From positions 81,974,001 through 82,038,000 of the forward strand of contig CM044318.1 in NCBI GenBank assembly GCA_024291935.2: a stretch of DNA of 64,000 nucleotides, read 5' to 3'. Source of the stretch: Okapia johnstoni. Its lineage: Eukaryota > Chordata > Mammalia > Artiodactyla > Giraffidae. A program made the position numbers and the translations under genes. The number at the start of each line of letters is the position of its first letter. Within the stretch, counting starts at the first letter, position 1. Below, piece after piece: positions 58,190 to 59,130 of the stretch. Below the pieces are notes generated by a model that was given only the letters and a program-made list of their open reading frames with translations, was not told the origin of the DNA and did no database searches.

Positions 58190-58468
58190 TTATGAGTTCA
58201 GGTTGGAGGGGTCAACATCACAAACATCAAGCCACTGCTCGGAGACAGAAATAAGCCATTTGATGGGAGTCAGGAATCTGTTGTTTGTCCTCAACTTTTC
58301 AGTAAGTGTTGCTTTCGAGGAAGAAGACTGAGTGGTGAGTCTTGTAGGAGTAGTCCGCTGAATCTAGATTAATAGCATGGTTTTGTGGCTCTATTCCTGG
58401 GAAAACCTCGGTAATCTTCACTGGGTAAGGATCAAGGACACGATTTCTATTCACATCAATGCAAACAC
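58190..58468 (-). pseudogene. MMP21: MMP21 decayed last exon (hemopexin C-terminus)
   Basis: Follows an intact acceptor (CTTTCTTTGCAG). Read on the minus strand it gives DVNRNRVLDPYPVKITEVFP, then EPQNHAI and LDSADYSYK, and ends WLDVCDVDPSNLNS before TAA. Lesions: one base lost near 58459-58461 (GCATTGATG where GCATTTGATG is expected); TGA at 58299-58301 in place of a conserved tryptophan codon (NTY-stop-KV); and a further frame change between EDKQQ and WLDVCDV. A Bov-tA SINE lies in the preceding intron (58631-58840). Confidence 0.92.
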
Positions 58469-58630
58469 CTGCAAAGAAAGTTAAGGCTGGCTTTTCTGGA
58501 AATCATTGGTTTTTAGATTAATTTATAGCAGTGAGGTAAGCATACTGTGGCTATACAAGATTTTGGGGGCTTGAAGTTCTTAACAATTTTCCATATGATG
58601 GGATGATCTGCCATGGCCATATATATATGT

Positions 58631-58840
58631 GCTCAGTCACTGAGTCATGTCCGACTCTTTGTGACCCCATGGACTGGAGCCCGCCAGGCTCCTCTGTCCA
58701 TGGGATTTCCAAGGCAAGAATACTGGAGTGGGTTGCCATTTCCTTCTGCAGGGAATGTTCCTGACCCAGGGATCAAACCTGTGTCTCTAATGTCTCCTTC
58801 ATGGCAGGCAGATTCTTTACCACTGTGCCACCTGGGAAGC
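58631..58840 (-). mobile_element. Bov-tA SINE in the MMP21 remnant intron
   Basis: Reverse orientation: GCTCAGTCACTGAGTCATGT to GTGCCACCTGGGAAGC. It lies between the two recognised pseudo-exons. Confidence 0.92.
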
Positions 58841-58956
58841 TGGCCGTATATATAGATCCGCGGTAATTGAGGACAGCTTCTAACTAAGAACTTGGTCGTC
58901 TGACAAATTCCAGTCAAGGACAACAGAAAACATCAGACTGGAAAGTCTTCTATTAC

Positions 58957-59130
58957 GAAGAACCCTTTGAAGAGGTAAATGAACTGCTTTCTTCAGTCAT
59001 CAAAGGCAACGTCCAGGGATTTGGGATGTGAGGGAATCCTGAAATCAATCTGGAGTAGCTTCTCCCTTGTTCATCTTCTGAGTGGGCCTGATCCTTATCA
59101 CTTTCGTATCTCCCATGTTGGTTTTCTGAG
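58957..59130 (-). pseudogene. MMP21: MMP21 decayed penultimate exon (hemopexin blade)
   Basis: Minus-strand reading gives NQHGRYESDKDQAHSEDEQG and RSYSRLISGFPHIPN. A frame change follows, then LDVAFDD-stop-RKQFIYLFKG. The stop (58993-58995) is TGA where human has an arginine codon, consistent with a CGA to TGA change. The donor GTAATAG at 58956-58955 is intact and falls where the human exon ends. The 5' limit is uncertain because similarity fades before the BovB junction at about 59163. Confidence 0.88.

Follow-up and report, generated by a model that had tools for sequence, protein, structure and literature searches.

What remains of MMP21 in the okapi (Okapia johnstoni), and how was the rest of the gene lost? 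The question is raised by a window of 64,000 nucleotides, the whole stretch of DNA analysed here (C16:81974001-82038000), which belongs to an assembly of 2,375,770,010 bases in 1604 contigs. Beside an intact EDRF1, an initial annotation of this window had noted two minus-strand stretches with similarity to the hemopexin domain of MMP21, with conserved splice sites, at least two stop codons and several frameshifts, and had proposed that they represent a unitary pseudogene in the gene order of humans. Our analysis makes it very probable that the last two exons of MMP21, lying between EDRF1 and UROS, are indeed a unitary pseudogene, whose exons 1-5 were likely deleted together with the end of a putative BovB retrotransposon. 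In humans, MMP21 variants are linked to heterotaxy in the available text of three reports (PMC9484203, PMC7680847, PMC11764533), and that of PMC9484203 locates human variants in exons 3 and 7. MMP21 is tied to the left-right arrangement of the human body, yet only a dead copy of it is found in this mammal.

Identity and position of the relic

The minus-strand stretches 59125-58957 and 58468-58190 are the last two exons, 6 and 7, of MMP21, a gene with seven exons. Both were recovered by tblastn, by frameshift-aware alignment and as matches in a whole-genome search. Exon 7 (58190-58468) holds the end of the hemopexin domain, and its frame ends with a TAA at 58192-58190, as read directly from the letters; it is separated from exon 6 (58957-59125) by intron 6 (58469-58956), inside which an interspersed repeat occupies about 58622-58840. 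In a tblastn search of the window, donkey MMP21 matches exon 7 at 58457-58272 and 58249-58196 (E 1.2e-19) and exon 6 at 59123-59016 and 59034-58954 (E 1.1e-14), while its other matches in the window have E 0.02 or more. The conserved splice sites of the initial annotation are present, with AG at 59127-59126 in front of exon 6 and with GT at 58956-58955 and AG at 58470-58469 at the two ends of intron 6. Additionally, the relic is matched by a profile of exons 6-7 at 50.3, 37.4, and 16.8 bits.

For comparison with 5.8 billion proteins, the relic was written as one broken protein of 135 residues, with X at the stops and frame changes and X as padding. Six of 82 candidates matched at E<=0.01, and all six are MMP21, five of them by name (golden jackal, dog, lynx, tiger, and donkey) and one, from a felid, by sequence; the top match reaches 111 bits (E 1.1e-26). 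Against solved structures, no score of the relic exceeds 22 bits, the matches being plant proteins of the hemopexin fold and collagenase 3, such that no better fit to another hemopexin-domain gene emerged from either search. Shorter queries were less informative: single open reading frames of the relic reached 12.2 bits for the Pfam hemopexin family, which is under the cut-off of 21.3 and too weak to decide, and one such frame had no match in the PDB. A scan of viral contigs with the relic matched two stretches, neither of which is a relative.

The neighbours of the relic are EDRF1 and UROS. EDRF1 (24848-55410, plus strand) carries the Pfam families EDRF1_N and TPR_EDRF1, and 25 tblastn segments cover all 1237 of the 1237 residues of muntjac EDRF1. 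The identity of the window's EDRF1 is 98.1% to muntjac, 97.9% to goat, 97.2% to blue whale, 96.6% to pig, and 96.0% to clouded leopard. Together with the BovB element described below, these values are indicative of a ruminant, and they hint at one that is close to neither deer nor goats. Over the 1237 residues, the tblastn segments, which provide a coverage-level check, contain no stop or frameshift inside the exons; four stops in three segments all lie where the alignment overruns an exon end, the residues concerned being covered by the adjoining segment. At this level, the gene is intact, as had been stated, and it serves as a control of sequence quality. On the other side, outside the window and 13.8 kb from exon 6, the minus strand of C16:82046938-82047039 holds a UROS exon. 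At 23.4 bits, its HEM4 match, the only one in the whole assembly, is below the Pfam cut-off; the translated exon is similar to the human UROS structure 1jr2 with E 1.9e-17. The observed order is EDRF1 on the plus strand, followed by the relic and UROS, both on the minus strand, which places the relic at the orthologous site. The human gene order invoked by the initial annotation is EDRF1, MMP21, UROS, and the okapi locus agrees with it, with UROS beyond the relic and EDRF1 on its other side.

The whole 2.38-Gb assembly was searched with donkey MMP21 in six frames and exon by exon, with scoring of first-look candidates, in 1604 contigs whose gaps could hide a copy. It contains 35 matches at E<=1, among which exon 7 of the relic ranks first (62 bits, 65% identity to donkey MMP21) and exon 6 third (38.3 bits, 61% identity). 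The other 33 of the 35 have identities of 35-58%; 18 fall in the catalytic part (residue 242 on), 13 in the pro-domain or the earlier catalytic part, and two in the hemopexin part (35% and 50% identity, E 0.18 and 0.52). The best match to a catalytic exon is 44% identical. Apart from the relic, this search of the assembly found no second MMP21-grade match, only paralogous MMPs, which argues for a unitary pseudogene, as had been proposed. The relic also differs from a processed copy in that it retains intron 58469-58956, with its GT and AG, and its original neighbours.

Lesions in exons 6 and 7

Four intact MMP21 proteins, those of donkey, jackal, Steller sea lion, and great roundleaf bat, served as references for a frameshift-aware alignment of the relic, and their results agree: four frameshifts, one in exon 6 and three in exon 7, and two in-frame TGA codons are common to all four. 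In exon 6, each of the four references indicates the loss of one codon at 59039, a 1-nt frameshift at 59015-59014, and an Arg codon turned into TGA at 58995-58993. In exon 7, they concur on a 1-nt frameshift at 58459-58458, a codon lost at 58370, a codon gained at 58343, a Trp codon turned into TGA at 58301-58299, a loss of 9 nt at 58292, and a net loss of 10 nt at 58248-58247. A second 1-nt frameshift in this exon lies between 58280 and 58270 with all four, its exact place varying with the reference. At 58272-58270, another Trp codon is replaced by a third TGA with three of the four references, while with donkey these bases fall in the frameshift. The reading frame is disabled whichever reference is used, which bears out the stop codons and frameshifts described initially.

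The relic was also compared with its orthologs at conserved positions. In 104 MMP21s, which remained after 16 of 120 fetched sequences had been dropped for length, fusion, or naming (three odd records by name), 36 alignment columns are conserved at 98% or more. The relic breaks 11 of these 36 columns, as against four in the worst ortholog and a median of zero among the orthologs.

The missing exons and the BovB element

Between exon 6 and the UROS exon, a profile of MMP21 residues 81-408 detects no trace of exons 1-5. Over 59131-73100, an interval with no N, its best score is 3.1 bits, compared with 0.3-7.3 bits in 20 mononucleotide shuffles, and the first 80 residues, which lie outside the profile, were not found by whole-protein tblastn either. 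No trace of the pro-domain or of the zinc-protease catalytic domain of MMP21 was thus found in 59131-73100, nor any at MMP21-grade identity in the assembly. Since exons 6 and 7 are recognisable at about 60-65% identity, catalytic exons should still be detectable if they were present. A relic that lacks both the pro-domain and the catalytic domain is not a working MMP21; as judged from its sequence, the locus would make no protease, because the exons for these domains are missing and the hemopexin part is not in one frame. The okapi locus resembles MMP21 of donkey, jackal, and lynx in the sequence of the last two exons and in its place by EDRF1 and UROS; however, it differs from them in that exons 1-5 were not found and the remainder carries stops and frameshifts.

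Upstream of exon 6, at a distance of about 40 bp, a rearranged and truncated non-LTR retrotransposon starts at about 59168 and extends to 60494. Its endonuclease domain was detected, and we take the element to be a BovB. The first piece is inverted relative to the second; near 59780, where the two join, they overlap by 21 bp, as marked by the inverted repeat 59168-59188 / 59780-59800. Twin priming is a process that leaves an inverted piece with a short shared sequence at the junction. The second piece ends at 60494, inside the reading frame, and another BovB copy at 99745-99357 (extended coordinates), which is 80% identical, continues beyond the cut point. Target-primed copies are normally 3'-complete, yet the second piece stops at 60494; a later deletion is therefore likely to have cut the element. 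We infer the deletion, its ends, its link to the BovB cut, and the order of events alike, and propose that exons 1-5 of MMP21 were likely removed by the same event or by one related to it.

Alternatively, exons 1-5 might never have been deleted, having decayed past recognition or been moved by a rearrangement, and the cut in the BovB might be unrelated. Many interspersed repeats do lie in the interval that separates exon 6 from UROS, and the evidence for the deletion is indirect. However, with exons 6 and 7 still recognisable, the same would be expected of the catalytic exons; the profile is blank over 59131-73100, and the assembly holds no MMP21-grade catalytic exon, the best being the one at 44%. 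This alternative thus appears unlikely, although it retains some weight. Much less can be said for the idea that the gene works and that its lesions come from errors of sequencing or assembly. The lesions are read from the assembly alone, but base errors are an unlikely source of them, given that EDRF1 in the same window is clean within its exons; moreover, the relic breaks conserved columns by substitution and is without exons 1-5, and such an explanation is hardly credible.

The abundance of related sequences in the assembly, with 35 MMP-like matches at E<=1 and 14 hemopexin matches, could suggest that the two stretches come from a different gene with a hemopexin domain, or that they are a processed or duplicated copy, and that the true MMP21 lies elsewhere. 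The evidence renders this extremely improbable: all six proteins matched by the relic at E<=0.01 are MMP21, whereas solved hemopexin proteins stay at or below 22 bits; the exons are split by an intron that retains its AG and GT, at a site between EDRF1 and UROS; and the best other match, the second-ranked one on C18, fits matrilysin at 78 bits versus 48.5 bits for MMP21, the two scores coming from different programs. Finally, the two exons might still be recognisable because the relic is retained for a non-coding role, as a regulatory element or an RNA. No tested feature supports such a role, however, the substitutions fall in conserved columns, and repeats have been inserted in the intron and in the upstream flank, such that retention of this kind is very improbable.

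Loss of MMP21 across vertebrates

A protein database yielded 481 MMP21-like clusters at E<=1e-100; the best 120 of these were examined by name (119 are named), the names being those of representatives of 90% clusters and the assignment to groups being our own. Among the best 120 of 481, the groups represented are donkey, carnivores, bats, pangolin, primates, rodents, afrotherians, xenarthrans, marsupials, echidna, amphibians, and fishes, and no artiodactyl, cetacean, bird, or reptile name occurs. For EDRF1, the best 120 of 420 clusters include 12 artiodactyl or cetacean entries and 37 bird or reptile entries. The database thus covers artiodactyls, birds, and reptiles, since the EDRF1 list holds all three. 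The lists of database names are consistent with a loss of MMP21 that would be common to even-toed ungulates. With regard to naming, the felid record among the six proteins matched by the relic, 'macrophage metalloelastase isoform X2 [Prionailurus iriomotensis]', has 80% identity to donkey MMP21 over 91% of it and is a mis-named MMP21.

MMP21 is reportedly one of five left-right organiser genes described by Szenker-Ravi et al. in 2022, and it is said to have been lost in even-toed ungulates. The okapi relic represents the same type of event as the gene losses of that study, with the difference that gene absence is reportedly described there, whereas one relic with lesions is described here. Two further members of the module were sought in the assembly. 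DUF4556 (PF15094), the family to which C1orf127 of this module belongs, had 0 matches in a search run without a positive control. Peptidase_M8, which presumably covers both CIROP and its paralog LMLN, had three matches, on C7 and C1, in a family that covers more than one gene. The available text of PMC9816872 and PMC11912448 reports that left-right organiser genes are lost in vertebrates without a ciliated organiser, and that of PMC12504268 deals with literature on organiser motile cilia and flow in pig and chick embryos. The loss of MMP21 likely goes with a left-right set-up without cilia-driven flow, and a likely reason for it is that MMP21 is no longer used by this lineage at a ciliated left-right organiser.

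With the defined lesions of the relic available for alignment, it becomes possible to date the loss and to test whether artiodactyls share it, as opposed to deducing it from missing annotation. In a tentative scenario, which we regard as plausible but somewhat short of probable, the older lesions of exons 6 and 7, if common to pig, camel, and whale, would date the loss of flow-based left-right sensing to the ancestor of artiodactyls. In ruminants, a later deletion with an end in the twin-primed BovB would then have removed the catalytic half of MMP21 and sealed its loss.

While the loss of MMP21 itself is expected from published work, the map of its lesions, the lack of exons 1-5 as far as UROS, and the cut BovB next to exon 6 were not met in our literature search. 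That search, conducted at abstract level and with most subscription journals outside its scope, recognised no published description of this MMP21 relic. The loss of gremlin 2 in ruminants, as presented in the available text of PMC5274524, is similar in that a single developmental gene was lost in a lineage, although the gene and the trait are different. A 2026 paper on bovine leukaemia virus that names MMP21 (PMC13192155) was considered as a possible contradiction and set aside, since its available text describes the use of human HEK293T cells and a human array.
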